Shown here piece after piece: positions 1-17,214 of a DNA stretch of 64,000 nt. This stretch comes from Actinomycetes bacterium (GTDB taxonomy: Bacteria > Actinomycetota > Actinomycetes > Nanopelagicales > Nanopelagicaceae), in assembly GCA_947383695.1 (NCBI GenBank), contig OX376642.1, forward strand, positions 434,001 through 498,000. Reading direction: 5' to 3'. The notes beneath the pieces were generated by a model that was not told the DNA's origin, searched no databases, and saw only the letters and a program-made list of their open reading frames with translations. Position 1 is the first letter of the stretch; each line of letters starts with the position of its first letter. Both the position numbers and the translations under genes were made by a program.

Positions 1-79
1 CGCTATGCAGCTTTAACGCTGCACCAACACTAGATAACTCAAAGGGATCATCAATGATCACCAAAACACGATCACTCAT
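1..79 (-). CDS. response regulator, N-terminal fragment (partial, runs off the window)
   Basis: Reading the minus strand from an ATG at 77-79 gives MSDRVLVIIDDPFELSSVGA and then leaves the window after 26 residues. A short beta-strand followed by an acidic pair (VLVIIDDP) at the very N-terminus is the usual opening of a CheY-like receiver domain, so a two-component response regulator is the likeliest product; the effector domain cannot be seen. A weak AGAGGT lies almost against the ATG. It would be transcribed in the same direction as nnrD, but 86 bp downstream of it. Too little sequence remains to rule out another protein with a Rossmann-like start. Confidence 0.5.
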   Translation of the reverse strand, partial: MSDRVLVIIDDPFELSSVGAALKLHS

Positions 80-125
80 ACCTCTAAAGTTACGCTGAGT
101 AATCTTGATAGTGAAGCATGGAGTA

Positions 126-142
126 CTAACTATGAGAGTTAG
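126..142. repeat. inverted repeat between nnrD and the response regulator
   Basis: CTAACT-ATGAG-AGTTAG is a perfect 6-bp inverted repeat with a 5-nt centre. No T-tract follows on either side, so it looks more like an operator or a weak RNA hairpin than an intrinsic terminator. Confidence 0.4.
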
Positions 143-165
143 CGCCAGATAGGGCTTCCCCTACA

Positions 166-1017
166 TCATTGTCGCTTAAGAAGTTTGGCTACCGTTTCAG
201 GGATTGCCACAATGATTGCCTCAGCATTTATTGGTCCGCCAGCAGATGCTTTCTCCGCCGCTTGGTTGTGAATGAAGGCCGCTGATGCAGCAACGTATGC
301 AAGGTGGTTGTAATCATTGAGAATCTCAATTGCATTAGTTGCAACCAACGCTCCCATGATTCCCGCCAAAACATCGCCGCTACCTGCAGTTGCAAGCCAT
401 GGTGTTGCCACAGGTAACTGAATTAAAACCTCATCATTGGCAACATAGGTTGTTGCACCCTTGAGTAAAACTGTTACTCCCAAAGTATCGGCTGCATTCT
501 GCACCCACTTCTTAGGATCTCCTTCAATCGCCTCTGCTGTTACCTGCACACCACGTGCTGAAAGCAAGGTCGCAAGCTCGCCGCTATGAGGAGTAATTAC
601 CGTTGGCTGTTCCAATGATCCAGCTAATGACAAAGCTCCAGCATCCAAAATTGTCGGAACAGATTGCAAACGAATTAATTTGAACCAGCGATGACGCAAC
701 CAGGTTGTGAAGTCTGAGTACTTCTTGGCACTAATTCCACTTCCTACCAACCAAGCTGCAACCTTTCCTGGTTGAACAACTGCAGATGGAGTTGTATGCA
801 AAACAAGATGGGCTAAACCTGATGAACTATGAAAACGCACCATGCCAACACCGGTTGCTGATGCTGCAGCTGTTGTTAATACAGCAGCTCCTGGAAACTG
901 CGCAGAACCTGTGATCAGACCCAACACTCCGCGACTGTATTTATGGTCTAAGTCTGATGGGGAGATAATGCATTTCGCAGCATCTCTTGCGCTCCACTTT
1001 TTCACTGTTCTCGTCAT
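166..1017 (-). CDS. nnrD: ADP/ATP-dependent NAD(P)H-hydrate dehydratase
   Basis: Repairs hydrated NADH or NADPH by nucleotide-driven dehydration, in the cytosol. The protein (283 aa from this start) has the ribokinase-like fold signature of the YjeF C-terminal family: an early glycine-rich segment GLITGSAQFPGAAVLT, the central ITPHSGELATLL, and the diagnostic ATAGSGDVLAGIMGAL near the C-terminus, which contributes the catalytic aspartate. The epimerase half (NnrE) is absent, so this is the stand-alone dehydratase form. The ATG at 1015-1017 is preferred over a TTG at 1023 because a TAGGCT -10-like hexamer ends 6 nt before it, predicting a leaderless mRNA. It is divergent from katG, sharing a 70-80 bp promoter region. 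Confidence 0.87.
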   Translation of the reverse strand: MTRTVKKWSARDAAKCIISPSDLDHKYSRGVLGLITGSAQFPGAAVLTTAAASATGVGMVRFHSSSGLAHLVLHTTPSAVVQPGKVAAWLVGSGISAKKYSDFTTWLRHRWFKLIRLQSVPTILDAGALSLAGSLEQPTVITPHSGELATLLSARGVQVTAEAIEGDPKKWVQNAADTLGVTVLLKGATTYVANDEVLIQLPVATPWLATAGSGDVLAGIMGALVATNAIEILNDYNHLAYVAASAAFIHNQAAEKASAGGPINAEAIIVAIPETVAKLLKRQ

Positions 1018-1023
1018 GATCAA

Positions 1024-1029
1024 AGCCTA
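1024..1029 (-). promoter_or_regulatory. -10-like element of nnrD (leaderless type)
   Basis: TAGGCT on the minus strand, followed by exactly 6 nt and then the ATG of nnrD. No convincing -35. Matches the TAnnnT-N6-start pattern repeated across this window. Confidence 0.4.
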
Positions 1030-1040
1030 TCTCTCATAAT

Positions 1041-1069
1041 TTGCGGGCAAACACAACGCAACCCATACT
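1041..1069 (+). promoter_or_regulatory. katG promoter
   Basis: TTGCGG (1041-1046) and CATACT (1064-1069) are separated by 17 bp, a good sigma-70-type arrangement. Transcription would start near 1076, giving a short 5' UTR that contains the AGGAGG ribosome site at 1093-1098. Confidence 0.5.
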
Positions 1070-1093
1070 TAGGTCAGTTCACTGTATTCATAG

Positions 1094-3256
<2,163 letters not shown>

Positions 3257-3268
3257 ATTCTTTACTGA

Positions 3269-3286
3269 AGTGGGGCGGGTCGGGCT
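3269..3286. repeat. att-like direct repeat, distal copy (tRNA-Met 3'-end fragment)
   Basis: Exact 18-bp copy of 13799-13816. It reproduces the 3' half of the T-arm, the 3' acceptor strand and the discriminator base of tRNA-Met but nothing further upstream of the tRNA, as expected for a displaced attachment core. Confidence 0.7.
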
Positions 3287-3298
3287 ACTTGCTTGAGA

Positions 3299-5866
3299 TT
3301 AGATCTTAAGTAGCTTCTTTCCCTTTACTACAGCATCGTTTCGATCGGTGGCGTTTAATTTCCGATAGATACTCTTTAAGTGTGTCTTCATCGTATTTTT
3401 CGAGATACACAGATCGGTTGCTATTTGCCCAATTGGCAGCCCTGTACCCAAATGTCTCAAAATGTCAGCTTCGCGTCTAGTAAGTGAACGTGTTGGATCA
3501 TCGCTTCCGACCATCATTTCATTCAATCTTTCTCCCGCGGCTTTAGCTAATCTCTCATTAAACGGGGTTGGAGACTCTGCAACGAGCGAAATGTATTGTT
3601 GAATGACATCTGACCGCTGAGTAAGAAAATGCTTGAAGTACCCATGCTTAGATCCAATTTCCACCGCTTGCCGCACTTCATTGAATTGGCCACGAGGGGA
3701 ATCAGAGAAAATGTGTGCTCTGTACAAGTGATAGGTAAGTTTTTGTCGGGGAATCTGTAAATCAAAAGTTTCAGTTATTTCTAGAGCCTTGGAGTTGTTT
3801 CCCTTACTCATATAAATTCCAGCCTTGAAGGCGCGCATTAGATATGAGTTCGGAGATCGAGATAAGAGGTCATCCGCGCGCTTGTAATCCATAACCCAGT
3901 ACCTAACTCGCGCCTCCCAGATATCTACCGCTTGATGAAGCTCTTCCGAAAGGTCGTTGTCAGTAATCATTTCTCTACTTTGATTAATGCAGGACAAGGC
4001 TTCCTCTGTGTTTCCAAGAAGAACTTGCTGATACGACATGCGTCCGAGCAGAGTTGCAACCATTGGAAAGTTCTTCGCCCCAATGGCTTGATCAAGCGCA
4101 GCCTGCAAAAGAGCTAAACCCTTTTGGTGATCACCACTTTCTGAAACGATCATGAACTCTGCCAAGTACCCACCAAAGGATGCGAAGAAGCCTTTGTGTT
4201 TCTGCCCATCAGATTCAAGTGGCACCGCGAGTTCATTCTTCGCCTCAATAAACCGACCTTCATGTGCCGCAATTAAGGCGTGCATAGAATGAATAATCGT
4301 TGTGTGATGAAGAGTAGCGCTTGTAAAACTCTTTGACTTTAGAGCTTGTGAGATTCTCTTAATTTTTGAATCATCATCTTGGATCACCGCACACCATAAT
4401 GCCAATTGCAAAAATGTGACCGTGTTGCCTCTAGATACAAAGATCTCTTCAGCCGGAGTTTCGACGCACTCCATGGCTTTTTCAAAACATTGATTGAGAT
4501 CTCCCTTTGCATAAGAGAGAATCGATTCATATGCGAGCAACTCTCGTTTCAAGCCTTTAATTTCAAAACCAGATTGACCTGAAGTAAGCACGTGCAGTGC
4601 TTGCAGATTAGATTGAGCATCGAGAAAATTGCCACACAAGATACTTATGTAGAAGGATATGATTCTCTTCGCCAGCTCTTCAATTTTCGGCACATACTCA
4701 AAAACATCTAGCCAATTCTTGAGGTGATCGATTCTGGATGAGTAAATAGCTTCTTGAATGCTCAAATCTATGTGTCGAGCCACAGTAGGCTCCTGAACAA
4801 TTTTCATCAATTTATCCATCGAACCTAGCTGCAACAAAATTTTTGTGACCTCACGGATTCTTCCGCTATCCAGTAAACAGGAAATGAGGTTCTCGCTTTT
4901 AGCTTGGAACTCATCTAAACGCTGATATTCACTAACAAGCACCTTACGGAGCAAAGGATGAATCGCGAATTCAGGTGGGCTGTCATTAGTCTGTGCGACC
5001 ACCATTGAATCTTGACTCAATAAGGTCAGTATCCGAACGACATCAATGTTGCCCGTAAGGGTCAATGCTGTTTTCGCATCAATACTCTCAAGCAAGGAAA
5101 GTTCAGTAACAATTTCTAACTCCTCTTGAGCCAAACTCGCCAAAATTCTTTGGGCGGGAACTGTGAATTGATCCTGGCCCTTGTTCTGAATTGAAGAGAT
5201 TAGAGATTTAAAATCCTTGGTTACCGCCAGCTGGGAGAGTGCGATATGAACGCCTAGGGGCCATCCTTGAGATAATTCTTGAATTTCAATCAAATTACTA
5301 GTGCTAAGTTCGACGCCAGATTGAACTGCTAATTGCTCAGCCTCATCCGATGTGAAGTTCAAATCTGTAGGTGTGATAATTGTGAATCGTCCTGCGCCAT
5401 GTTCTTGTAAGAAGCTAGTTCGCGGGGATGTCTCGGTAAGTAAAATCAATTTTATGTGTGAAGGGAGCTTGCCGACTAAGAAACGTGCAAATCCATTGTG
5501 ATCTCTCCGAATTACTTCGGCATTGTCAATGACGATGTGAAACTTACTTTTGTCCTTCTCGATGACCTTTAGGAATTGGGAAAGAACACCATCATCAACT
5601 TCCTTAAGGTTTTCAAACTGAGCCAAACTTTTATTCAGCGAGGGGATACTTTTTCTAATTTCAGAAACGATCGAACCAAATAGTTCTGCTACTTGAGATG
5701 TCGCGAAGCCATCAAACCAAATGATCGGATCTGACTGAGTGTCTGCCCACTGCCTTGCCAGTACTGATTTCCCAAACCCAGTTGGTCCGTAGATATAAAC
5801 AACGTTGTCAGTTGAACTATTGATCGTATTGATTAAGCGCCGGCGCAGTAGAAGCTGGGATCCCAT
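3299..5866 (-). CDS. MalT/LAL-type STAND ATPase transcriptional regulator (LuxR HTH)
   Basis: Large signal-integrating transcription factor, about 855-870 aa. It has an N-terminal STAND/AAA-type NTPase (Walker A GPTGFGKS near residues 42-49 and Walker B FHIVIDNAEVI near 124-134, counting from the GTG at 5911), a long helical TPR-like middle, and a C-terminal LuxR-type helix-turn-helix (LTRREADILRHLGTG ... ISKNTMKTHLKSIYRKL). Such proteins are typically inducer- and ATP-dependent activators. An ATG at 5866 is preferred: CAAAAT ends 6 nt before it, and three GGGTGAA-like boxes then lie wholly upstream, the nearest about 40 bp away. The GTG at 5911 would overlap a box. It is divergent from the giant surface gene, which it probably controls together with itself. 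The ligand is unknown. Confidence 0.88.
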   Translation of the reverse strand: MGSQLLLRRRLINTINSSTDNVVYIYGPTGFGKSVLARQWADTQSDPIIWFDGFATSQVAELFGSIVSEIRKSIPSLNKSLAQFENLKEVDDGVLSQFLKVIEKDKSKFHIVIDNAEVIRRDHNGFARFLVGKLPSHIKLILLTETSPRTSFLQEHGAGRFTIITPTDLNFTSDEAEQLAVQSGVELSTSNLIEIQELSQGWPLGVHIALSQLAVTKDFKSLISSIQNKGQDQFTVPAQRILASLAQEELEIVTELSLLESIDAKTALTLTGNIDVVRILTLLSQDSMVVAQTNDSPPEFAIHPLLRKVLVSEYQRLDEFQAKSENLISCLLDSGRIREVTKILLQLGSMDKLMKIVQEPTVARHIDLSIQEAIYSSRIDHLKNWLDVFEYVPKIEELAKRIISFYISILCGNFLDAQSNLQALHVLTSGQSGFEIKGLKRELLAYESILSYAKGDLNQCFEKAMECVETPAEEIFVSRGNTVTFLQLALWCAVIQDDDSKIKRISQALKSKSFTSATLHHTTIIHSMHALIAAHEGRFIEAKNELAVPLESDGQKHKGFFASFGGYLAEFMIVSESGDHQKGLALLQAALDQAIGAKNFPMVATLLGRMSYQQVLLGNTEEALSCINQSREMITDNDLSEELHQAVDIWEARVRYWVMDYKRADDLLSRSPNSYLMRAFKAGIYMSKGNNSKALEITETFDLQIPRQKLTYHLYRAHIFSDSPRGQFNEVRQAVEIGSKHGYFKHFLTQRSDVIQQYISLVAESPTPFNERLAKAAGERLNEMMVGSDDPTRSLTRREADILRHLGTGLPIGQIATDLCISKNTMKTHLKSIYRKLNATDRNDAVVKGKKLLKI

Positions 5867-5906
5867 GGGGTTATTTTGGAATGTGACTTCACATTTTGGA
5901 AGATTT

Positions 5907-6056
5907 CTCACCCCAATTCCGCCGTTTCACCCGCCTTTTCACCCTCTAACCCCCGATTTCCACGCTGCCAATCGCCGTTGGCTTAACCGGTTGGGTGAAT
6001 TCTGGGGGGATTTGAGGGTGAATAGGTGCATCCACCCCTATTTCTTGAGGTGAGAA
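5907..6056. promoter_or_regulatory. symmetric six-box divergent operator region
   Basis: Three TTCACCC-type boxes point left (CTCACCC 5907-5913, TTCACCC 5926-5932, TTCACCC 5938-5944) and three GGGTGAA-type boxes point right (GGGTGAA 5993-5999, GGGTGAA 6016-6022, AGGTGAG 6048-6054). The innermost left box and the middle right box extend into a long imperfect inverted repeat (5938-5954 against 6004-6022). Between the groups lie CCAA-TCGCCG-TTGG (5968-5981) and the palindrome AACCGGTT (5985-5992). The arrangement suggests cooperative binding by the adjacent LuxR-type regulator in both directions. Confidence 0.6.
6021..6042. repeat. inverted repeat upstream of the giant surface gene
   Basis: AATAGG (6021-6026) and CCTATT (6037-6042) are perfect inverted arms around a 10-nt centre, lying about 30-50 bp before the predicted transcription start. 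A possible second operator type within the box array. Confidence 0.4.
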
Positions 6057-6059
6057 AAG

Positions 6060-6065
6060 TATTTT
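6060..6065 (+). promoter_or_regulatory. -10-like element of the giant surface gene (leaderless type)
   Basis: TATTTT followed by 6 nt and the ATG at 6072. No -35 resembling TTGACA is present at the right distance, which fits activator-dependent transcription. The GAGG at 6047-6050 is too far from the ATG (21 nt) to serve as a ribosome site. Confidence 0.4.
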
Positions 6066-6071
6066 TCCCGC

Positions 6072-9000
6072 ATGGTTTCAATCATGAATCTGAATTGGCG
6101 GAACAGACTTTTCAGATCACGCATACTTGTCCCACTATTAATTGCAATTTCGGCATTTTTCTTAATCGTTCTTGAAAGTAACTTCAGAACAGCGTCGGCT
6201 TTAGCCCCTACTTTGACCATTGTGAAAGACCAGTCTAATACTAATGCTGATACATCTATTCCTTTGCCCGCCACAGGGTGGACCCATATCGCCAGGCCTT
6301 GCTTGGATGGAGCGCAGCAATACTCATACGTAAACAATCAAACTGCCCCTGACAATTCTACATGTGACTCTAATGAGCCTGGGCGCTATGGAAACATTGA
6401 CGGTGATCATGTGCGTACGGGTTACAACTATAATTCTTTCAAAATCACATTTGTAAATCCTGTTTCTGAGTTCATCTTTGACTCCGGAGGCGTTGTTGCT
6501 GACAATCAAGCATATATTCACGTTTTCTTTGAGAACAAAACTCCCACAAATTTCTACTCGGATACCTCTGCTTATGTGAGTTTTCCGTTAACACTCAATT
6601 ACAGTGGCGGGTCGGGTTGGTCAACCAGATACAAAGTGTCATTTAGCGATGGCACACAAATAACAAAAATTGGCTTCAGCTACAACTCATCGGGTACATC
6701 TTTCTCAAACTATCCGAGCATGTTTGACAATTTTGGAATACCTAATGCACCAACTGTCAGCACCTTCTCGAGCAGTACAACAACTCCACGTAACGATTCA
6801 AATGCTTCATACAGTCTTGTTTTCTCCCAGAGCGTTACAGGTTTGACTACTGATGACTTTGAAAATGCAGGCACCGCAACGGGATGTTCTTACACAGTAA
6901 CTGGATCAGGAACTACCTATACCTTAAGTATTTCCTCGTGTTCCGATGGAACGATTCAACCTAGAATAAAGACTAATTCTGTAACGGGAAGCACGTTTGA
7001 TGGTCCTGCAAGTGCCGCCACAACAACAAGCACTATTACTAAAGACAGTTTCGCTCCCACAGCATCAGTGACAACAGCAACAATTCTTGCCTCGGGAAAC
7101 GCTTCAGTACAAAGTTCTGAGGCTGGTACTGCATACCTCGTGAATGAAACGGTCACTGTGACCAGCTTGGCAAGTATTACTGGAGCGGCTGACAATCTGC
7201 AAAACTCTGTTTCAATTACAACGGCAAATACCAACACAAATCTCGCAGCGACCGGATTAGTTCCTGGAACCTACAAGCTCTATACGACTGACGGTGCCGG
7301 AAATCTCTCTGCAGCATCTACAAATTCGATTTCGATTAAACCAGCCACACCTGGAACTCCTGATCTCGATTCTGCTTCAGATCTTGGAACGAACAATGAC
7401 AATAACACTTCAGATGACACTCCTACATTCACTCTCTCATCCCTTATCTCCGGAGCAAGTGTTACCGTGGCAGCAACACCAAGTTCTGGAAACGCGGTAA
7501 CTTGTTCATTTACTTCAACCGGTAATAGTGGTTCTTGTACCTTTACTTCACTTTCGAATGGAACCTACTCCATAACCGCTGTTCAATCTTTTGGCGGAAT
7601 CAATTCAGATACCAGTACCGCACTCGCAAATGTTGTTATTAACAAAGCGACTATCTCTAGGCCTGCCAGACCGGATTTGGCAACTTCATCTGATTCTGGA
7701 AGTTCGAGTAGCGATGACCTTACAAATGACAACACTCCGACTATAAACGTAACAGGAACATTCACGGGGACGGCAACCGTTACTGCTGCGAAAATGGGCT
7801 CTACAAGCGTGACGTGTAGCGTTTCATCAAGTACTTGCACTCTCAGCACTTTGAGCGATGGAGTTTGGAACATCACAGTCACAGACGGAGATGCAGCAGG
7901 AAATAGTGCAACTTCTGAAACATTATCGATCACTGTTGACACCACTGCACCGTCAACACCGACGATAACTGCTCAAACCGTGTCAGATAGGGAGTCTATT
8001 TCCATCCAAGTTGCTGACACAGGTACGGCTTATTTGTATCGCTGGTTATCGACTAATACTCCTTCAACGCCTGCCGATGTCACCACGAAGGCCTCGGAGT
8101 TTTGGAATTCTGTGGCAGTTGTTGCCAACACTTCAACATCGATTTCCACTTTGGACCTTGGAACTGGATATAACTATAAACTTTATGTTGTTGATGAAGC
8201 CGGAAATATCTCAAGCGGAAGTACCAATTTAGTCAAAGTTGATCCTGCTAGTAGCCCCACTATTTCGGGGCCTACCCGACCATCTTCGTCAAGTCCAGCT
8301 GACAAAGTTGGATCGACGCTAACTAATGTAATGTCTGTTTCAGGGCTTCCTGTGCCAACAATAAGTTATCAATATGTGCGCTGCCCAAGTGTTTCAGGTA
8401 ATTGGGTGCCAACGTGCGTCGATATCCCTGGTGCAACGACGAGCACCTACATTTTGACGGCTGAAGATGCAGGTCAGCATATTGGCGTAGAAATAACTGC
8501 AACCAACTCACAGGGCTCGACCGTTCAAATTGGAGTTGCTACAGCGAAGGTTGAGGCGTCCGTACCTGGTGCCCCTACTTCCGTTGCAACGACAATTACA
8601 GGATCCACAACAGCATCGATCGCATTCACAGTCCCGGCCTCAAATGGTGCTTCGATAACGGATTATGACCTTGAGTACTCAAGCAATAATGGAAGCACTT
8701 GGACAAGTTTTAACAATGGAACAAGTACTACGAATCCAATTCTCGTTACTGGATTAACAGCAAATACGAGTTATATTTTCCGCGTCAAAGCCAAGAATTC
8801 GGCTGGAGATGGAAGTTTTTCTATTGCCACATCGCCCCAGACAACACTTCAAGCCCCATCAGTGGCAACTAATGAAGCACCACAGAATTTAGCTTCCCCA
8901 GGCGTCTTCAAAGTTGGGGACACCATTACTAACCAAATGACCTTTGATGGTTTTCCAAACCCAACTCTGTCTTATCAGTTTCTGCGATGCCCGACGGTTA

Positions 9001-12000
9001 CGTATAGCTCAAATGATTGTGCCGAAATTCCTAGTGCTACATCGAGTACATACACACTCACAGGTGAAGATGTTGGCAAATACATGGGTGTGAAGATTAC
9101 CGCGACGAACTCAAGTGGAAGTCTTGTTCAAACTCCTATGCGAAATACTCTAGTCACGGCAGCGAGACCCGGAGCGCCAACTTCTGTTGCAGTAAGCATT
9201 ACTGGATCAACGACAGCGACGGTTTCATTCACAGCCCCGGTCTCAAATGGTGGTTCTGCAATCACTGGTTACACGGTTACTTCAACACCTTCAGGAGCTG
9301 TTTGTGCAGCCGGTGCAAGTAGCACCACATACAACTGCACTGGGTTAGCTGCCGGTACGTCATATACCTTCAAGGTGAAGGCGACAAATACAGTTGGATC
9401 AGGAATTGATTCTTCTCCGTCATCAAGTGCTGTCACGCTTGTTGCACCGACTCTGACGGTCCATAAAGATGAATCAAATAATGCAACTGACACACCAATT
9501 TCATTACAATCTGGAACACTCACAGATCCATGTGCAAGTAATTCATATTACACAATCACGTTTTCATCCGGCTCGTGTAACAGGGAGCCAACCAACTATT
9601 CATCTGGAAATGTAAATGCGGATAACATGTTCGTTGATACGAATCGGTCGGTATTCCTTAATTTATTACAGCCGATAAATTCCTTCACTTTTGATGCTTG
9701 TTGCGTTGATCGCTCTGTTTATGTATTAGTTCAATACGAAGATTCAAATCCGAGCAGTTTTTATGTCGGCAATTCAGGATTTGTTAGCTATCTCCTAACA
9801 GCCAATGCTTCTTCCGTGCCGTCGACTAGATATCAGATTAGTTTCGCAGATGGCAGACTAATTAAGAAGATTGGTTTGGGATTTAATTCAGATGGTTCTA
9901 GCAGTTCGGGTGATATCACGATTTACGACAATTTTGGCTTCTCGGTTGCACCATTAGCGACATCTGTATCCGTATCAAGTAAATCATTAACGGCTGGTAC
10001 TGCTGCCACTTCTTTCACCCCGATTAATGCTTCTGGAGGAGGAAGTTCTAAAACCTATTCAATCTCTCCATCACTACCTTCTGGATTGTCATTGAATGCT
10101 TCAACAGGAGCGATTACAGGAACGCCGACAGGAGCGAGTGCATCGACTAGCTACACAGTTTCTGTTACTGACGGATCATCAACTTCAACCGCAACCTTCT
10201 CACTAGGCGTCAATGCGGCATTGAGTTCTACGACAGGAACGGTTCCTTCAGGAGTCTATAAAGATGTGGCAGTAACGGCATTTACGCCAGTTAGCTTTAG
10301 CGGTGGAACATCGCCAGTCACATATTCTGTCTCTCCAAGCTTGCCAGCGGGGCTCTCACTTAATACTTCAACGGGCGTGATTAGCGGTACAGCCACAGGT
10401 ACAGCTGCAAGCACCACTTATACAGTGACTGCCACCGATGCAAATGGCGCCTCAGAGGCAAGCACCTTTGCTTTTGCCGTCACCAATCAGCCAACCGCAC
10501 CGGGTGCTCCAACTATTGGTGCTGCGACATCAACAGGCCAAACAACGGCAACAGTTGCTTTCACCGCCCCAGCAAATACTGGTGGTGCTGCAATTACAAC
10601 TTATACAGTTACTGCAAGTCCAGGAAGCATTACTGCAACTGGTTCTTCATCGCCAATAACTGTTTCTGGATTAACGGCCGGAACGGCGTATACATTCTCG
10701 ATCACCGCAACTAACGCTGCAGGTTTAACATCATCTTCATCATCGCCAAGTAGCAGCATCACAACTGAATCTGCGCCTGTTCAAAACAACAATAATGGCG
10801 GCGGCGGTGGAGGTGGCGGGGGAGCACCTGCTCCAGCACCTGAACCAGCCCCGGAACCTGTTTGTAACGCTACATGTGTAGCTGCACAAAATGCAGCAGC
10901 AAAAGCTGCTGCCGATAAAGCAGCGGCAGAGAAGGTAGCCGCTGAAAAGTTAATAGCTGACAAAGCTGCGGCGGTTGCAGTTGCAGAGAAGGCAAAAGTT
11001 GATGTGAGTGCGGCTGTAGCTTCAGCAACTGCCGCTGCTGAGAAAGTCAGCGCTGCGACTGTCGCAAAGGTTGCTGTTGACACTATTGCGGCCGCGGTAA
11101 GTACCGTGGTGAATTCAGCGAATGCTGCGCAAACAAGTACATCCAAAATTACAAGTGAGGCTGCTGCATCAATAAAGAGTGCACCAGCTGCAGCAACTAA
11201 GGCTGCAAGTACTGCTTCTGCAAACTCCAAGGCAAACACGGCAGCTACTCAAGTTAAGGCTGCAGCCAATGCTGCTCAAAAGGCCGCGGCAAGTTCGCAG
11301 GCGCAGACTTCAAATACGCCAGAGATTGCATTTGGATCTTCAAATACCGCTTCTGCGGCTTCGCAAGCTGCAGCAAAGGCTGACGCGGCTGCACGCGCTG
11401 GAAAGTCGGCTGCCAATGAGGTAGCTGCTGCAGCAGAAGTTAAGTCGATTGAATCTAGAGTAACGGCAACGGCGCTACAGAATGAGGCAAATGCCGCTGT
11501 TGCAGAAGCGATTGCTGAACAAAAGGTGGCTGCGGCATTGGCCACGGAGGCTAAAGTTGCTGCAGATAAAGCAAGCGCCGCTACTACAGAAAAGATTGCT
11601 GCAACTGCTGCAGCAAAGACAGCTGCTGAAACTTTGGTCACTTTATTAACAGAAAAAGTTGCGATTGCCGAAAAGGTTGCAACCGCGGCTTCTGAGGAAG
11701 TACGAGCAGAGGCCCAAAAGACACTTGATACGGTAAATATCAAGATTGCAGAGGCTGAAAGAGCTGTCACTGAAACGGTAAGCAAGGCCGATGCAGCAAT
11801 TGCTGCACAAGCAGAGGCGATTAAAGTTGCTGAAGCAACTAAAGCCACTGCAGAAGCCCAGGTAAGAAAGGTAGATCAGTTACTCGCCTCGGTTCCTATC
11901 AAAGCAACAGCAGCCGTTCGCGCAGCTTCCGCGGCTGCAGTAGCGGCAAAGGTTGCAGCCGCTGCAAAGGTTGCAGCTGCGACGATCCCATCAAGAGCGG

Positions 12001-12116
12001 TCATCTCTGCTAAGCCAGGTGTTTCAACAGGCAAGAATTCAACTCGAGCGACAATCTCTGGATTAAAGCCTGGCCAAAAGGTTAAGGTAACTGTGAATGT
12101 GAAGCCAAAGCCATGA
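6072..12116 (+). CDS. giant secreted multidomain surface protein (Ig-like / FnIII / Ala-rich stalk)
   Basis: 2014 aa, no recognised enzymatic domain. Residues 1-44 form a signal peptide (basic start, hydrophobic core about 18-35, end at SALA). A module of about 175 aa (47-223, from TLTIVKD to DNFGI) recurs diverged at about 1127-1293 (from TLTVHKD to DNFGF). Between them are bacterial Ig-like repeats with Asp-rich linkers (SDSGSSSSDD) and two copies of a unit containing TSTYxLTxED plus an FnIII domain opening with PGAPTSV (about 830-925 and 1032-1125). Two putative-Ig domains (SPSLPSGLSLNxSTGxITGT, about 1313-1470) and a third FnIII (about 1476-1570) follow. Then come a polyglycine hinge, a Pro/Glu strip, about 370 residues rich in Ala/Lys/Val/Glu (likely helical stalk) and TISGLKPGQKVKVTVN. 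No LPXTG sorting signal. Likely an adhesin or surface-layer fibre; function is inference. Confidence 0.8.
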   Translation: MVSIMNLNWRNRLFRSRILVPLLIAISAFFLIVLESNFRTASALAPTLTIVKDQSNTNADTSIPLPATGWTHIARPCLDGAQQYSYVNNQTAPDNSTCDSNEPGRYGNIDGDHVRTGYNYNSFKITFVNPVSEFIFDSGGVVADNQAYIHVFFENKTPTNFYSDTSAYVSFPLTLNYSGGSGWSTRYKVSFSDGTQITKIGFSYNSSGTSFSNYPSMFDNFGIPNAPTVSTFSSSTTTPRNDSNASYSLVFSQSVTGLTTDDFENAGTATGCSYTVTGSGTTYTLSISSCSDGTIQPRIKTNSVTGSTFDGPASAATTTSTITKDSFAPTASVTTATILASGNASVQSSEAGTAYLVNETVTVTSLASITGAADNLQNSVSITTANTNTNLAATGLVPGTYKLYTTDGAGNLSAASTNSISIKPATPGTPDLDSASDLGTNNDNNTSDDTPTFTLSSLISGASVTVAATPSSGNAVTCSFTSTGNSGSCTFTSLSNGTYSITAVQSFGGINSDTSTALANVVINKATISRPARPDLATSSDSGSSSSDDLTNDNTPTINVTGTFTGTATVTAAKMGSTSVTCSVSSSTCTLSTLSDGVWNITVTDGDAAGNSATSETLSITVDTTAPSTPTITAQTVSDRESISIQVADTGTAYLYRWLSTNTPSTPADVTTKASEFWNSVAVVANTSTSISTLDLGTGYNYKLYVVDEAGNISSGSTNLVKVDPASSPTISGPTRPSSSSPADKVGSTLTNVMSVSGLPVPTISYQYVRCPSVSGNWVPTCVDIPGATTSTYILTAEDAGQHIGVEITATNSQGSTVQIGVATAKVEASVPGAPTSVATTITGSTTASIAFTVPASNGASITDYDLEYSSNNGSTWTSFNNGTSTTNPILVTGLTANTSYIFRVKAKNSAGDGSFSIATSPQTTLQAPSVATNEAPQNLASPGVFKVGDTITNQMTFDGFPNPTLSYQFLRCPTVTYSSNDCAEIPSATSSTYTLTGEDVGKYMGVKITATNSSGSLVQTPMRNTLVTAARPGAPTSVAVSITGSTTATVSFTAPVSNGGSAITGYTVTSTPSGAVCAAGASSTTYNCTGLAAGTSYTFKVKATNTVGSGIDSSPSSSAVTLVAPTLTVHKDESNNATDTPISLQSGTLTDPCASNSYYTITFSSGSCNREPTNYSSGNVNADNMFVDTNRSVFLNLLQPINSFTFDACCVDRSVYVLVQYEDSNPSSFYVGNSGFVSYLLTANASSVPSTRYQISFADGRLIKKIGLGFNSDGSSSSGDITIYDNFGFSVAPLATSVSVSSKSLTAGTAATSFTPINASGGGSSKTYSISPSLPSGLSLNASTGAITGTPTGASASTSYTVSVTDGSSTSTATFSLGVNAALSSTTGTVPSGVYKDVAVTAFTPVSFSGGTSPVTYSVSPSLPAGLSLNTSTGVISGTATGTAASTTYTVTATDANGASEASTFAFAVTNQPTAPGAPTIGAATSTGQTTATVAFTAPANTGGAAITTYTVTASPGSITATGSSSPITVSGLTAGTAYTFSITATNAAGLTSSSSSPSSSITTESAPVQNNNNGGGGGGGGGAPAPAPEPAPEPVCNATCVAAQNAAAKAAADKAAAEKVAAEKLIADKAAAVAVAEKAKVDVSAAVASATAAAEKVSAATVAKVAVDTIAAAVSTVVNSANAAQTSTSKITSEAAASIKSAPAAATKAASTASANSKANTAATQVKAAANAAQKAAASSQAQTSNTPEIAFGSSNTASAASQAAAKADAAARAGKSAANEVAAAAEVKSIESRVTATALQNEANAAVAEAIAEQKVAAALATEAKVAADKASAATTEKIAATAAAKTAAETLVTLLTEKVAIAEKVATAASEEVRAEAQKTLDTVNIKIAEAERAVTETVSKADAAIAAQAEAIKVAEATKATAEAQVRKVDQLLASVPIKATAAVRAASAAAVAAKVAAAAKVAAATIPSRAVISAKPGVSTGKNSTRATISGLKPGQKVKVTVNVKPKP

Positions 12117-13783
12117 TGCGTAAATTACTTTTGCTGACGTTAATCTTTCTGAACTTTTCGGTTTTGCCAGCTGATTCCGCCGAGAAAAAGGTTGTCATCG
12201 ACAGGCTTACTCAGTCAGAGGCTGAGGATCTTGATATCGAAATCCCTGATGAAGTCCCTCCAGGTTTTCACTCCATCACCATTGAGGTCTATGACGACAA
12301 TGGAACGGTAAGCCAGAAAGAGATTGAGTTTTGTAAGGATGAAGAGGGTGTTGTTCAGTGGGATAACAACTGCCCTAATTTGAATTTGGATGAAGAACCC
12401 GCACCTGCTGATCCAGAACCGGTAAAGGCGATTAAGACAGGGTTACAGCCTTACGATCCACTGGGCGATCCAGAGACGACAAAGGGGCTGCATTTGGCTG
12501 CTTTTGCTGCCCTTGCTGCGTTGACATCGGTCAAGCGCAATGAGAAGCAAAGTGATGAAGAGGCAGAGCAGGAGTCCTTGCAATCTGTCTCATCAGGAGC
12601 GTTGAAGTTACTGAAGAATGAACCAGGCAAGGGCGATCTGTCACAAACCTGGGACAACAAATTTACAGATGAGACAGATTTCGCTTTTGTATCTTTAGCA
12701 CATCGCTTTAACCGTTTCTCGCCATTGCTTACCCGCACGATTCAAGACGGCAACACAGTGCGAGCAATCATTGGCTCCTTTGCAGCGCTATTGATCCCTA
12801 TTGGTTTGATTCTTGGAATCATTGCAGCGATCAATACAGGCGCTCAGGCGTTGCCACCTGTTTGGGCAATCGTCGGTGCCATTATGGCGGTTGCAATCTT
12901 TGATGCATTTGCGGGCTTTATCGCAGGCTTTGTTTTCTTCTTAGCAGCATTGCTAACTGGAAACATCACTAACCGTCCTGAGCTGCTTACATCAATTGGT
13001 GTAATGGTTCTGTTCTTTGCACCAGCTTTGCTTGCAAGTGCATTCCGTCCATTCCGTCGTTTGGTTCGAAATCAAGATGATATGTGGGAGCGCATTACAG
13101 ATTATGCGCTTGGAACATTGTTAACTTTCTGGGTAATTACAAAGATGGTTGCTGCCATGAACGGTTTGGCTCGTCTTGAGCTGCCAATTACAGAGTATGG
13201 AACTGAGCTCGCTTTTATTGCTGCCGGTTTGTTGTTGATCCGCGTTGCTTTGGAAGATATTGCGGTTGAGCACTATCCAATGCGTCTTCGTGCGCTACAT
13301 GTTGAGATCAAGAAGCCATCACAGAATCAGAAGATTCGCTCACTTGCCTTCAAAATCTTTGTCTTCTTCATTATGGCCGCGCCATTTGTCGGTTCAACAC
13401 TGAACTTGGTTCTAGGAACCTTGTTGTTTGCGATTCCTCAGATCACATCACTTAGCCTTGAAGACAACCTGCCTAAGAAGAAGTTGTATCTACCAAAGGG
13501 TGTTTTCAAGACGGTTGTGATGATCTTTGTAATGGCACTTACCTCAAATCTAATCGAAGGTGCTTTTTCATCACCTGAAGCCTTCTTAAAGTGGAGCTTT
13601 GTGGTGATGGCCTTGCCTGGCTTCTTCCTGCACTACTTAGATGCAATCACAGATGCACCAGAGTCGGATTGGAAAACCACAGACAAGGGTCGAAAGATCT
13701 ATCGCATCGGTGGAGTCATCGTGTTTATCTTGATGGTGCTGGTTGTGAAGGGCGTAGATATCGCTTCATGGCTTGTTGGGTAA
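12113..13783 (+). CDS. polytopic membrane protein coupled to the giant surface protein
   Basis: 556 aa, family not recognised. A short signal sequence (residues 1-22, ending DSA) precedes an extracytoplasmic domain with a Cys pair (C74, C87) and an Asp/Glu/Pro-rich linker. Hydrophobic segments follow near 125-140, 217-241, 248-284 (probably two), 292-311, 331-350, 365-380, 411-440, 464-482, 492-508 and 532-550, so about ten transmembrane helices. Its ATG overlaps the TGA of the giant gene (ATGATG), implying translational coupling and a shared job, for example export, anchoring or signalling for the surface protein. A second ATG three bases later is an equal start candidate. The gene ends 15 bp before the att-like repeat, so it is the last gene of the island. 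Confidence 0.78.
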   Translation: MMRKLLLLTLIFLNFSVLPADSAEKKVVIDRLTQSEAEDLDIEIPDEVPPGFHSITIEVYDDNGTVSQKEIEFCKDEEGVVQWDNNCPNLNLDEEPAPADPEPVKAIKTGLQPYDPLGDPETTKGLHLAAFAALAALTSVKRNEKQSDEEAEQESLQSVSSGALKLLKNEPGKGDLSQTWDNKFTDETDFAFVSLAHRFNRFSPLLTRTIQDGNTVRAIIGSFAALLIPIGLILGIIAAINTGAQALPPVWAIVGAIMAVAIFDAFAGFIAGFVFFLAALLTGNITNRPELLTSIGVMVLFFAPALLASAFRPFRRLVRNQDDMWERITDYALGTLLTFWVITKMVAAMNGLARLELPITEYGTELAFIAAGLLLIRVALEDIAVEHYPMRLRALHVEIKKPSQNQKIRSLAFKIFVFFIMAAPFVGSTLNLVLGTLLFAIPQITSLSLEDNLPKKKLYLPKGVFKTVVMIFVMALTSNLIEGAFSSPEAFLKWSFVVMALPGFFLHYLDAITDAPESDWKTTDKGRKIYRIGGVIVFILMVLVVKGVDIASWLVG

Positions 13784-13798
13784 TAGAACGCCGAAACT

Positions 13799-13816
13799 AG
13801 TGGGGCGGGTCGGGCT
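13799..13816. repeat. att-like direct repeat, tRNA-proximal copy
   Basis: 18 bp identical to 3269-3286. It covers the tRNA-Met 3' end (13801-13816) and two downstream bases. Confidence 0.7.
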
Positions 13817-13874
13817 CGAACCGACGACGACGGAATTATGAGTTCCGGGCTCTAACCAACTGAGCTACCGCCCC
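13801..13874 (-). tRNA. tRNA-Met (anticodon CAT)
   Basis: 74 nt cloverleaf on the minus strand. Acceptor arm GGGGCGG / CCGCCCC with discriminator A; D-arm GCTCAGTTGGTTAGAGC; anticodon arm with the loop CTCATAA; T-arm GTCGGTTCGAGCCCGAC. The anticodon CAT is the complement of 13838-13840. No CCA is encoded. The CTCATAA loop and absence of initiator features point to an elongator tRNA-Met; a lysidine-modified tRNA-Ile cannot be fully excluded by eye. Its 3' end forms one border of the putative island. Confidence 0.93.
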
Positions 13875-13889
13875 TAACGAGTGTGAACT

Positions 13890-14222
13890 TTACCTTGATT
13901 TTTTCTCGCGCTGGAATCCTCTGCGACCCCAGAACTCCCAAAGCCCCATAACGGAGAGAACAAGCGCAAAACCAAAGAGCAGATCCTCTATGGGAGCTGC
14001 TGCAATTCGATATCCGGTAATTGAATCTGGGTTATACATAACGATCGCTTTTCCATCACCGCGAAGATGAGTAAGCCACCAGTTAGTTAATAACTGGAAG
14101 GGAAGAATGATCATGTAGGAAAGCCAAAAGGCTAGGCGTGTAAGCAAAGAGTTCTTGAAAAGAAAGAGATCAACAACAACCGCGACAAAGACCGCCGCTA
14201 CCGCGATATCGCTATAGCTCAT
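13890..14222 (-). CDS. crtYd: lycopene beta-cyclase subunit CrtYd
   Basis: Second half of the actinobacterial heterodimeric lycopene cyclase, which converts lycopene to cyclic carotenoids in the membrane. 110 aa with three hydrophobic helices and the family signature of a polar pair after the second helix (NPDSITGYRIAAAPIEDLLFGFALVL, written here only by its key residues P, E and D). The C-terminus is basic (RRGFQREKKSR). Its ATG overlaps the stop of crtYc by 4 nt, so the two subunits are translationally coupled, as expected for partners needed in equal amounts. It sits directly beside blh, which would use the beta-carotene product. Confidence 0.85.
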   Translation of the reverse strand: MSYSDIAVAAVFVAVVVDLFLFKNSLLTRLAFWLSYMIILPFQLLTNWWLTHLRGDGKAIVMYNPDSITGYRIAAAPIEDLLFGFALVLSVMGLWEFWGRRGFQREKKSR

Positions 14223-14566
14223 TTCTCCTCATCCTTTCCGAACTCTTTTTCGCGCAGATGAGGCTTAACTGTTGTAACTCCTTCGATGGTCAAGATCGCC
14301 GCCATGGGCACGATGATGAAAAAGAGAAACTCTTCGAGCGGAATATCAAAAGGTCCATAAATACCAAGCATGCGATCGCGATTAAAGAACCAATGACCTT
14401 GGGCAATTGCATAGGCATCCCAAATTAAGAACAGGGTGCTGATCGGAAGAATGCTCAAGAGTGCACGCTTCCAACGACGAAGTACGCTGGTTTTCAAAAC
14501 GATCTCTAACCAAAAAGAGCCACAAACGGTGAAGGCGAGCATCGCCATATAACCGAATTTTTCCAC
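14219..14566 (-). CDS. crtYc: lycopene beta-cyclase subunit CrtYc
   Basis: First subunit of the heterodimeric lycopene cyclase, with three membrane helices and the conserved loop between helices two and three (WDAYAIAQGHWFF ... GPFDIPLEEFLFF). A GTG at 14566 (VEKFGYMAML) is preferred because it gives about 115 aa, in line with the family. An ATG at 14620 would add 18 residues without similarity and would overlap the start codon of the divergent blh gene, leaving no room for promoters. Forms a two-gene unit with crtYd. With the lycopene-forming enzymes absent from this window, substrate must come from genes elsewhere. Confidence 0.82.
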   Translation of the reverse strand: MEKFGYMAMLAFTVCGSFWLEIVLKTSVLRRWKRALLSILPISTLFLIWDAYAIAQGHWFFNRDRMLGIYGPFDIPLEEFLFFIIVPMAAILTIEGVTTVKPHLREKEFGKDEEK

Positions 14567-14593
14567 GTCAGATCTTCTCACATCCACCTTTGA

Positions 14594-14599
14594 TAGGGT
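14594..14599 (+). promoter_or_regulatory. -10-like element of blh
   Basis: TAGGGT lies 20 bp before the blh ATG and is followed by an AAGGGGGC ribosome site, so blh would have a short conventional leader. No clear -35. Confidence 0.3.
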
Positions 14600-14618
14600 T
14601 ATCAAAAAGGGGGCAGAC

Positions 14619-15566
14619 ATGCAGGAAAACGTGGTTGCGCTCTTTAAACAGGTACGGCTCTTTTCATCGGTGGCTGCAGCGATCGGAATCCTGCTTTCCT
14701 TAATTTTCTCTGGGTTACTTCAAACAAGCTCTATGGGGTGGCAGGTTGTTGTCGCAGTTGTTGCTTTAGCAATAGGTATTCCTCATGGAGCTTTGGATCA
14801 CTTAGTAACTCTTCCAAAGTCGCAGCCATCAAAGATGGCGATCTTTATTGTTATTTATGTTGCCGTCGCGGTTGTAGCCGTTGTTGGAATTCTGAAGTTC
14901 AACACTGTTGGATTTATTCTCGTCTTGTTTATGAGTGCAATCCACTTTGGAATTGGTGATGCCGCCTTTATTAGCGAGATAGATAAGCGCACCAATCCTG
15001 AGAGAAAACTCAATCGCTGGTGCTATATTCCTGCAGCCGGATTTACTCCGGTGTTTATACCTTTAGTGAACTCTGCAAGCACCGAAGCGCTGGCATCTGT
15101 GAATCCTGCGTTGATTAATTGGCACCAGGGATTTGATTCTGAAATCTTGATACTTGTCTCTGCCTTTGCCGTACTTTCCATTGCTGTGATGTTTGTGGGA
15201 AAGAGAAAACGAGAAGGTGTGGATCTAACTTTGCTTTTGCTCTTGGCCCATCTCGCACCTCCATTAATTGCATTTGCTGTCTACTTTGGATGCTGGCATG
15301 CAATGCGGCACACAGCTCGCTTGACCCTTTCTCTGCCGAAATGTATTGAGAGTTTGAATCTAGGCTTGAATAGAAAAGCCTTTTTTTGCGCCGTTATTCC
15401 AGGATTACCTGCTCTGGTTGGAACCTTTGTAGTTGCTGCGGTTTTAGCGTTAAGTGGCCAGAGTTTTTCCGATGAGTTTTTCTGGATGGCGTTAGTAGTT
15501 GTGTGGGCGCTCACTGTGCCTCACATGGTAGTTACCGCTAAATTGGATCGTGCAGCACTAGCCTAA
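14619..15566 (+). CDS. blh: Brp/Blh-type beta-carotene 15,15'-dioxygenase (retinal-forming)
   Basis: Membrane enzyme that cleaves beta-carotene into two molecules of retinal, the chromophore of microbial rhodopsins. 315 aa with about eight hydrophobic helices. Conserved iron-binding histidines are visible: H56 and H61 in IPHGALDH, H108 in IHFGIGDA, H226 and H230 in CWHAMRHT, plus VPHMVV near the C-terminus. An AAGGGGGC ribosome site precedes the ATG. It is divergent from crtYc/crtYd, so the last step to beta-carotene and its cleavage to retinal sit in one 1.7-kb cassette. No rhodopsin gene is in the window; dependence on an actinorhodopsin elsewhere is inference. Confidence 0.88.
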   Translation: MQENVVALFKQVRLFSSVAAAIGILLSLIFSGLLQTSSMGWQVVVAVVALAIGIPHGALDHLVTLPKSQPSKMAIFIVIYVAVAVVAVVGILKFNTVGFILVLFMSAIHFGIGDAAFISEIDKRTNPERKLNRWCYIPAAGFTPVFIPLVNSASTEALASVNPALINWHQGFDSEILILVSAFAVLSIAVMFVGKRKREGVDLTLLLLLAHLAPPLIAFAVYFGCWHAMRHTARLTLSLPKCIESLNLGLNRKAFFCAVIPGLPALVGTFVVAAVLALSGQSFSDEFFWMALVVVWALTVPHMVVTAKLDRAALA

Positions 15567-15570
15567 GCTC

Positions 15571-16161
15571 ATGAAGTTAAAAGCAAGTGTGATTGCTGCC
15601 TTTATTGTGGCAACGACATTGACTCCGGCACAGGCCGCTCCGATTTATGTATTCCCAATCGCCAATTGCGAAGCTAACTATGCACGCGCACACCATGATT
15701 ATGCTGCGACAGATATTTTGACAAAAGCCGGGTGCAAGTTTGTTGCGCCAATAGATGGTGTTGTAGATGAGGTTAATCGAACAGATCTTTGGAAAGGTAA
15801 GACAAATCTAGGTATCGATCGCGGTGGTTTGTATGTATCGATCATCGGCGTTGATGGAGTTCGCTATTACGGTTCACATCTGCGTTCGATTCCAGCAAGC
15901 ATTCAACCAGGAGTATCTGTGAAGGCAGGTCGTCCGTTAGGTGCTGTCGGTTCAACCGGAAGTGCGCGAGGCACTGCGCCACATCTTCACTTTGGAATTT
16001 CCTGGCCAACAGCTGAAAATATTTGGTGGGTTCGTCGCGGTGAAGTATTGCCGTGGAAGTATCTAGATGCATGGAAAGCTGGAAAGGATTTATCTCCAGT
16101 TAAAGAAGTTAATGCTCGCAAATTAAAGGTGGGAGAGCTTCCACCAGAACCAAAGAAGTAA
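15571..16161 (+). CDS. secreted M23-family (LytM-like) peptidase
   Basis: 196 aa. A signal peptide (residues 1-22, ending AQA) directs it out of the cell. The Zn-binding pattern of M23 endopeptidases is present: H41/H42 with D48 in HHDYAATDIL, and the HxH motif at H138 and H140 (APHLHFGIS), with an additional histidine at H103 (GSHLRS). Such enzymes cut peptide cross-links in peptidoglycan, or act as inactive scaffolds; here the metal ligands look complete. It starts 4 bp after blh and ends at a strong bidirectional terminator, so it may share the blh transcript despite an unrelated role. Confidence 0.85.
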   Translation: MKLKASVIAAFIVATTLTPAQAAPIYVFPIANCEANYARAHHDYAATDILTKAGCKFVAPIDGVVDEVNRTDLWKGKTNLGIDRGGLYVSIIGVDGVRYYGSHLRSIPASIQPGVSVKAGRPLGAVGSTGSARGTAPHLHFGISWPTAENIWWVRRGEVLPWKYLDAWKAGKDLSPVKEVNARKLKVGELPPEPKK

Positions 16162-16163
16162 AT

Positions 16164-16198
16164 AAAAAAACCCCGCCAGTTACCCGGCGGGGTTTTTT
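16164..16198. terminator. bidirectional intrinsic terminator
   Basis: Stem CCCCGCC (16171-16177) / GGCGGGG (16186-16192), flanked by an A-run (16164-16170) on the left and a T-run (16193-16198) on the right, so it can end both the M23 gene (+) and the cold-shock gene (-). Confidence 0.92.
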
Positions 16199-16213
16199 AA
16201 TAGTTAGTGTTGA

Positions 16214-16417
16214 TTAGGCAGGGTTTACTGCATCAGCCTGAGGACCCTTTGGACCCTGTACGACCTCAAATGAAACTGCCTGACCCTCTTCAAGGGACTT
16301 GTAACCGTTTCCTTGAATAGCTGAGTAGTGAACGAATACATCTTGTCCGCCACCATCAACTGCAATGAAACCGAAACCCTTTTCAGAGTTGAACCACTTA
16401 ACTGTGCCTGTTGCCAT
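16214..16417 (-). CDS. cold-shock domain protein (CspA family)
   Basis: 67-aa single cold-shock domain that binds single-stranded RNA and DNA and melts mRNA structure. The RNP1 motif KGFGFI and RNP2 motif VFVHY are intact, and the N-terminus [18 protein letters not shown] is typical of the actinobacterial group. A GAAGGAAAA ribosome site lies about 9 nt before the ATG. The upstream leader contains a strong hairpin (16443-16467), in keeping with the structured 5' UTRs that control cold-shock genes. Single-gene unit ending at a bidirectional terminator. Confidence 0.95.
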
Positions 16418-16442
16418 GTATTTATTTTCCTTCGATATGTGG

Positions 16443-16467
16443 GTGATCCGAGAAATCCTCGGTTCAC
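16443..16467 (-). promoter_or_regulatory. stem-loop in the cold-shock gene 5' leader
   Basis: GTGA-T-CCGAG-AAATC-CTCGG-T-TCAC: two stacked perfect stems (5 bp and 4 bp) separated by one T-T mismatch, with a 5-nt loop. It lies about 10 nt upstream of the ribosome site of the cold-shock gene and inside its predicted leader. Confidence 0.55.
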
Positions 16468-16494
16468 GGTCTTCCTCTTGCTCCAGCGATACCG

Positions 16495-16500
16495 ATTATG
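16495..16500 (-). promoter_or_regulatory. possible -10 of the cold-shock gene
   Basis: CATAAT on the minus strand; transcription would start near 16488, giving a leader of about 70 nt that includes the hairpin. No convincing -35. The rest of 16501-16689 shows nothing recognisable apart from the DUF3145 ribosome site. Confidence 0.3.
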
Positions 16501-16689
16501 CAAAACATGAAACGGGTACTGATTAAGCGTCCGACTGAGCCCAACTGTACCGCCTACCGCTCCGTATGCCTAAAGGGGGAGTAGACAGTTTCAGGCTCAT
16601 TGGTGTCTAATTGAGGTGTTCGCTCCGCAAGTTTGAGCCGAAAATGCTGCTGGGGAAGGTCGCATTTGGGCAACCTTGCAAGGAGAACC

Positions 16690-17199
16690 ATGGAACGTTT
16701 AACCACGCCTTCAAACCGTCAGCAGGTTCGGGGCTTTCTAACCATTCACTCAACGCCATCTGCTTTGCGCCACCATATTGATTGGGCGGTTCAAGCTGTT
16801 CTTGGAACCTGGGTAAAACCATCGTGGACTCCACAACCTTTAATTCCTGGCTCTTATCGCACACAAATTGAGTTTCGTGATCGTGCAGGAGCCGCTGCCG
16901 AACTTGCAAGCTCACTTCGTAGTTGGCATTACTTAAACTTTGAGGTTATTGAAAACAGTGACAATGGTGGCGAATTATTTAGATGTACGCCCGAGCTTGG
17001 AATACATCGCGCAATCGTTGATCAGACAGGTGCGGTCATTCTTACTGAAAATCAACTGAGCGCGGTATTAAAAAACGCCTTTGATGAAGAAAGTATTCGC
17101 GAAGCAATTTCTTCACTTCTGGGAAACCCATGGGAGTTAGAGCTCGATCGCTTCAGGAGTGTTGACCTTCAAGAAATTGCTCACCTTCGCGCAATCTAG
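16690..17199 (+). CDS. DUF3145 family protein
   Basis: 169 aa, matching the actinobacteria-restricted DUF3145 family, whose function is not known. The family's N-terminal pattern is clear: RGFLTIHSTPSALRHHIDWAV, followed by WTPQPLIPGSYR, a RDRAGAAAELASSLRSW helix and the TPELGIHRA segment. The ATG at 16690 is chosen over an upstream in-frame ATG at 16633 because an AGGAGA ribosome site sits 4 nt before it and the extra residues do not resemble the family. It is divergent from the cold-shock gene and 15 bp upstream of the SIMPL gene. No signal peptide or membrane segment, so it is probably cytosolic. Confidence 0.85.
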   Translation: MERLTTPSNRQQVRGFLTIHSTPSALRHHIDWAVQAVLGTWVKPSWTPQPLIPGSYRTQIEFRDRAGAAAELASSLRSWHYLNFEVIENSDNGGELFRCTPELGIHRAIVDQTGAVILTENQLSAVLKNAFDEESIREAISSLLGNPWELELDRFRSVDLQEIAHLRAI

Positions 17200-17202
17200 A
17201 AG

Positions 17203-17208
17203 TAAGAT
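17203..17208 (+). promoter_or_regulatory. -10-like element of the SIMPL gene (leaderless type)
   Basis: TAAGAT followed by exactly 6 nt and the ATG at 17215, with no ribosome site. No clear -35. Confidence 0.4.
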
Positions 17209-17214
17209 ATAGAC

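Follow-up and report, generated by a model that had tools for sequence, protein, structure and literature searches.

Additive flexible genomic islands with repeats of tRNA fragments have been described in Ca. Actinomarinales (PMC7771536), and those of Ca. Methylopumilus are marked by repeats of the final 20 bp of tRNA-Lys (PMC10872708). As described in the latter work, the tycheposons of streamlined plankton are cargo elements that sit at tRNA genes, tRNA-Met(CAT) among them. Cis-mobilizable elements (CIMEs) possess att sites without a recombinase (PMC5704250), and the Islander scheme, which demands an integrase, describes a T-stem/acceptor and an anticodon class of crossover (PMC4383910). The locus analyzed here is part of a 64,000-nucleotide stretch of DNA (the window) from the complete, single-contig genome (1,431,431 bp) of a bacterium of the Nanopelagicaceae. 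With a probability of roughly 0.8, the region from 3287 to 13798 of the window is an integrase-less genomic island that is one occupant of a tRNA-Met integration hotspot, inserted and carrying its cargo in the way proposed below. The type of island is already known, namely the additive flexible genomic island, of which this is a newly and cleanly documented example. The features of the locus, in window positions, are the following.

1103..3256, plus strand: left flank, katG (catalase-peroxidase), which adjoins tRNA-Met in genomes with an empty site
3269..3286, plus strand: displaced tRNA-Met 3′ fragment, the distal attachment-site copy, 12 bp past the katG stop
3287..13798, no strand: island, the cargo between the repeat copies, missing as a unit from the empty site of congener G077, where the flanks are joined at one copy
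3299..5911, minus strand: STAND/MalT-like LuxR-type regulator of 870 aa (Pfam, NCBIfam), divergent to the surface-protein gene
6072..12116, plus strand: surface or secreted passenger of 2014 aa, with a signal peptide region, fn3 and bacterial Ig-like domains and an Ala-rich coiled-coil-like region
11982..12110, plus strand: conserved C-terminal tail of the passenger (..ISGLKPGQKVKVTVNVKPKP), detected with tail profile A2
12113..13783, plus strand: P4, a multi-helix membrane partner of 556 aa, whose gene overlaps the passenger stop by 4 bp
13799..13816, plus strand: proximal attachment-site copy inside the tRNA-Met 3′ end (repeat match and ARAGORN)
13800..13874, minus strand: intact tRNA-Met(CAT), the integration target (ARAGORN)
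13890..14620, minus strand: right flank, two small membrane proteins (crtYc/crtYd-like, as named in the original prediction), used as anchor for the locus search in relatives

Like the islands of Actinomarinales and Methylopumilus, this locus combines cassettes next to a tRNA gene, partial-tRNA direct repeats, a streamlined aquatic host, repeated insertion at one site and a variable cargo of one to many genes. It differs from them in the host genus, in the use of tRNA-Met rather than the tRNAs reported there for the repeats, and in its cargo of a surface passenger, a membrane partner and a STAND-LuxR regulator; a further difference is that the exact empty site could be demonstrated here, in a sister species. 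The resemblance to CIMEs lies in the retention of attL/attR-like ends, the lack of integration and transfer genes and the accretion at a tRNA 3′ end; unlike for CIMEs, no parent ICE/IME was found in this genome, the other genomes being incomplete, and several cassettes at the site consist of one gene. As in Islander islands, an intact tDNA is accompanied by a displaced 3′ fragment in the same orientation on the downstream side, and the 18-bp copy fits the T-stem/acceptor junction subsite (J) whereas a 41-bp copy in congener G104 reaches the anticodon (A); an integrase gene inside the island, required there, is absent here. A cargo-carrying element at tRNA-Met(CAT) in streamlined plankton also recalls the tycheposons, but this island contains no tyrosine recombinase. 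An integron gene cassette was rejected, as no integron integrase was found in the genome, which has two XerC/XerD-sized tyrosine recombinases only (their Xer nature being deduced, see below). A prophage or phage satellite was likewise rejected, since Pfam and NCBIfam revealed no structural or packaging genes among the three island genes and P4 is absent from phage records.

The original prediction held that an exact 18-bp direct repeat joins the tRNA-Met 3′ end to an orphan fragment between convergent genes. This was confirmed: the two copies of AGTGGGGCGGGTCGGGCT are identical at 18/18 positions, and ARAGORN places one of them on the tRNA, where the repeat includes the 3′ strand of the acceptor, the 3′ strand of the T-stem, a portion of the T loop and about 2 bp more. 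The other copy sits between the stops of the convergent katG and LuxR genes. When up to three mismatches were allowed, the 18-mer occurred at two sites only in the genome, both of them the repeat copies, and it is therefore not a motif that is widespread away from tRNA genes. As was also predicted, the 10.5 kb between the copies holds only three long genes, for the STAND/MalT-like LuxR regulator, the giant surface protein and the membrane protein P4. Recognition of the island by base composition was rejected, its GC content (0.459) being close to that of katG (0.467) and of the rest of the window (0.469). The window also contains a tRNA-Ala gene, for which no repeat was found within the window.

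To locate the same site in relatives, 135 congeneric genomes were searched with katG and the right-hand flanking protein. In G077 the two matches lie within 0.5 kb of each other. Window positions 1-3286, the katG flank, align to L010 12257-8971 (92.6% identical) and positions 13799-20000, the tRNA flank, to L010 8988-2786 (96.3% identical); the alignments share exactly 18 bp, a single repeat copy at the end of the tRNA, and nothing at this locus matches the island. At the left junction both sequences read ...TGA followed by the repeat, and at the right junction the repeat is followed by CGAACC..., as in the tRNA. G077 thus offers what the Islander scheme looks for, an unoccupied site with a single copy in a relative, and it has exactly the junction expected if removal of the island were to place katG beside tRNA-Met. 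As a check, the original prediction had suggested looking for genomes that lack the three genes and in which tRNA-Met comes straight after katG. Besides this exact empty site, the search yielded the genomes G009 and G052 (katG 91-93% identical), in which katG directly adjoins the tRNA-Met 3′ end, and the distant G103 and G092. The empty site is thus a common state and probably the ancestral one. Nor are the three genes present at the same place in all relatives: for the LuxR gene only matches of about 24% identity exist in the other 134 congeners, and P4 was matched in 44 of the 135. The flanks are unequal in their identity to G077 (over 1 kb, 91.5% on the left versus 97.0% on the right), and homologous recombination or exchange around the site may therefore have acted in addition to insertion.

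Comparison of 41 loci with the tRNA-Met anchor showed that the genes between the conserved left genes and tRNA-Met differ strongly between clades. In several genomes, tRNA-Met 3′ fragments are present in direct orientation downstream of the tRNA, with lengths of 14-41 bp versus 18 bp here, and the cassettes at this tRNA-Met in other species measure 0.7-3 kb. Such fragments were found in G120 (34 bp, 1.4 kb away), G061 (14 bp, 1.4 kb away), G040 (19 bp, 0.73 kb away, enclosing a one-gene cassette with a gene of 173 aa) and G104 (41 bp, ending at the anticodon loop, 1.66 kb away, with a single gene of family F47). G022 carries a 2.7-kb cassette with a surface protein resembling part of the giant protein of the window, and a member of family F47 just outside the repeat. 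In G083 two repeat copies lie 9.8 kb apart on one contig that ends within the tRNA region, and this genome probably carries other cargo at tRNA-Met too. A homologue of the 173-aa gene of G040 is located immediately outside the tRNA fragment of G120, an arrangement that would follow from the entry of newer cassettes on the side of the tRNA. The original prediction had proposed to look for other cargo flanked by 3′-end repeats at this tRNA-Met; it was found in five genomes and probably in a sixth. Different cassettes occur repeatedly at the same tRNA in relatives, the mark of an additive flexible genomic island, and the katG/tRNA-Met junction is a genus-wide insertion hotspot. This hotspot character, the pairing of passenger and P4 described below and the assignment of the island to a known type are new relative to the original prediction.

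Other arrangements were seen at this junction. G003 has two identical full copies of tRNA-Met, together with a tandemly duplicated HAD-type phosphatase gene (L035 15879-17212); this was rejected as a cassette, since the duplication is a recent tandem one that takes in the HAD gene and extends into the gene after it. Clade-specific gene blocks lie to the left of tRNA-Met throughout the genus (L014, L015, L031-L034, L038-L054); they comprise repeated similar gene sets, ABC-transporter-like genes and a block that is phosphate-regulation-like by appearance. In G128 (L101 72-2630) a frame of 852 aa lies between the left conserved genes and tRNA-Met and ends inside the tRNA gene; it is possibly another cassette.

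The regulator gave a Pfam match to GerE (3.6e-14), an AAA/NB-ARC-type ATPase match and a partial NCBIfam match to MalT (1.7e-34). Close relatives are absent from the genus; the next matches, among them a second copy in its own genome, are at about 24% identity. Judged by gene order and domains, it is likely a local regulator of the surface module.

P4 received no Pfam or NCBIfam assignment above cut-off, and no credible solved fold matched its model (pLDDT 69; best Foldseek E 0.067, TM 0.13). It was not found in the phage, plasmid or viral collections, and the search of named genomes with back-translated patterns gave no confirmed case. A P4 paralogue of 91% identity is encoded at 1.39 Mb of the same genome, where its gene follows immediately on that of a giant surface protein whose domains are quite different. 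We surveyed the loci, window included, that had a P4 homologue at least 32% identical and readable upstream sequence. In 15 of the surveyed loci the end of the gene before P4 lies at most 3 bases from the P4 start, and this gene encodes the same C-terminal tail, while its length and domains differ; L110 and L116, which are without the tail, are exceptions. The tail reads (G/N)LKPGQKhKVTVKhK in the closer P4 loci and is of the general type (G/N)LKxGxKhxhThK. Tail profile A2 matched only two proteins in the genome of the window, both of them passengers directly before the two P4 genes. These observations of gene order and domains indicate that passenger and P4 form a recurrent cognate pair, which would be dedicated to surface display. 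No described family was found for the pair within the libraries searched; it is the more novel part of the island and possibly an undescribed sorting or display system.

The family of tail-bearing passengers with P4 comprises window 11982-13783, L007 9996-19507, L067-L069, L106, L107, L109, L112-L115, L120, L121, L123 and L124; besides L110 and L116, the distant L117, L122 and L027 are exceptions. The second pair of the genome (G000:C1:1389999-1399507, L007) lies beside a pyroglutamyl-peptidase-like gene, and this same neighbour gene also follows P4 in G081, G120 and G128, so that the place of this pair looks like the older position. It was rejected as another tRNA-bounded island: it is located downstream of a tRNA-Arg gene, and no tRNA-Arg repeat was found. 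In G060 about 95 bp of a P4 3′ end lie beside the same tRNA-Met and are followed by other genes. The last 42 bp are identical in the P4 gene of the island (P4a, window 13742-13783), in the paralogue (P4b, the end of L007 gene 9996-11666) and in the G060 relic (L012), whereas P4a and P4b are only about 80% identical outside these 42 bp and other species differ within them. Recombination, or repeated capture from the P4b type, may have brought this about. In view of the relic at the same tRNA, presence and absence do not reflect one simple gain.

The genome of the window encodes only two PF00589 tyrosine recombinases (open frames of 307 and 323 aa), which are presumably XerC and XerD because nearly all congeners have PF00589 genes of this size; no PF00239 resolvase was detected in this genome. 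Neither of the two lies in the island, whose three long genes include no PF00589 match, as the original prediction had it. A profile built from phage and genus integrases detected no integrase in the tRNA-Met and P4 contigs examined, apart from the XerC-like gene of the window itself and an Xer-sized gene in L095, and no integrase remnant was found in the tRNA-Met contigs examined. In 5 of 8 loci inspected elsewhere in the genus (L078, L079, L080, L082 and L084), extra integrase genes lie beside tRNA-Thr, tRNA-Arg or tRNA-Leu. G074 has eight PF00589 matches.

In three IMG/VR viral contigs (L070, L072 and L073), the 23-bp end of tRNA-Met is present exactly, with no tRNA gene around it, and adjoins a gene for a tyrosine integrase of 384-386 aa. 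The identity to the 3′ half of tRNA-Met extends over 32-46 bp and is attP-like, and these contigs appear to be phages targeting this tRNA-Met. Going by the position of this tRNA-Met end beside the integrase genes, integrases of such specificity probably exist. A helper enzyme acting in trans on the island is plausible, and we infer that it may have been one of these phage-type integrases, the link of the phages to the host genus being putative. The junction expected of a circular form, GAAACT-AGTGGGGCGGGTCGGGCT-ACTTGCTTGAG, was absent from the viral contigs, and there was no sign of excision or of a circular form. Four other viral matches were not used: those in L075 and L077 lie within predicted coding sequence of GC-rich phage contigs, that in L071 lies within a phage tRNA gene, and that in L074 (76 bp at 88%) could represent a phage copy of the tRNA that has diverged.

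These results allow the other explanations of the locus to be weighed. The repeat might be coincidental, for instance a GC-rich terminator-like sequence, for which a position between convergent katG and LuxR stops would be suitable. However, the genome (1.43 Mb) has no site like it other than the two copies, and the junction of G077 at exactly this copy already refutes a chance identity, which the original prediction had rightly called very unlikely and which we consider to have practically no probability. It might also be argued that the empty state is derived, an ancestral island having been lost from G077, G009 and G052, and the G060 relic does show that a P4 gene was once present at the same junction in another branch. 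We regard this as unlikely: katG lies beside tRNA-Met in several branches, including the distant G103 and G092, congeners have nothing closely related to the LuxR gene, and for exactly one repeat copy to remain after a loss, excision by a site-specific or repeat-mediated route would in turn be required.

Another explanation is that the island is a CIME-like, decayed remnant of an autonomous integrative element, which lost its integrase and transfer genes after insertion and moves only by homologous recombination between flanking genes. The att-like ends retained in the absence of a recombinase, the unequal flank identities and the G060 relic, which shows in-place decay of such islands, make this a real possibility, if one somewhat short of probable. 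Repeated independent decay of large elements, with the integrase lost every time, is however hard to fit with the smallest cassettes (0.73 kb and 1.66 kb, one gene each), and integrase remnants were not found in the tRNA-Met contigs examined. The recurrence of integrase-less cassettes at one tRNA, together with phage contigs that carry the tRNA-Met end beside a tyrosine integrase, would be in line with insertion in trans by a phage or satellite integrase using the same site, with the cassettes as passengers needing only a copy of the tRNA end. This too we hold tentatively, as a possibility below even odds, since the genomes examined have no such integrase next to tRNA-Met and the integrases found elsewhere in the genus often adjoin other tRNAs (Thr, Arg, Leu).

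We therefore retain the reading of an integrase-less island inserted at the tRNA 3′ end, which is supported by the checks of the original prediction that were run, none of them speaking against it. Points that weigh against the reading are the shortness of the repeat, the lack of a recombinase, the unequal flank identities and the G060 relic. The insertion would have been made by a tyrosine integrase recombining in the T-stem/acceptor part of the tRNA gene, which may have acted in trans, for example from an actinophage, or have come from a part of the element that has since been lost. The cargo would constitute a cell-surface module that can be switched: the STAND-LuxR regulator would control the giant secreted passenger, and the dedicated P4, whose gene comes directly after that of the passenger, would handle the passenger's C-terminal tail by anchoring or exporting it. 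By acquiring the island, a cell would alter the surface that phages, grazers or particles encounter. A more far-reaching and rather doubtful extension is that the tRNA-Met end is an open cassette port of the genus, into which small recombinase-free cassettes, even of a single gene and equipped with no more than a tRNA-Met 3′ end, would be inserted repeatedly beside the tRNA by integrases acting in trans, with an undescribed display system of unrelated passengers, each with the shared tail and its own P4, as one recurrent class of cargo.

The pair of passenger and membrane partner, with the C-terminal tail common to the passengers, has the look of a system for sorting or display that is so far undescribed. 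Should the trans-acting integrase be identified, the movement of integrase-less islands in planktonic bacteria becomes a testable question. The island provides a base-precise case, proven by an empty site, in which very small, streamlined freshwater bacteria still acquire large surface genes, and the 3′ end of tRNA-Met is a named port at which the gain of surface genes can be followed across the genus.
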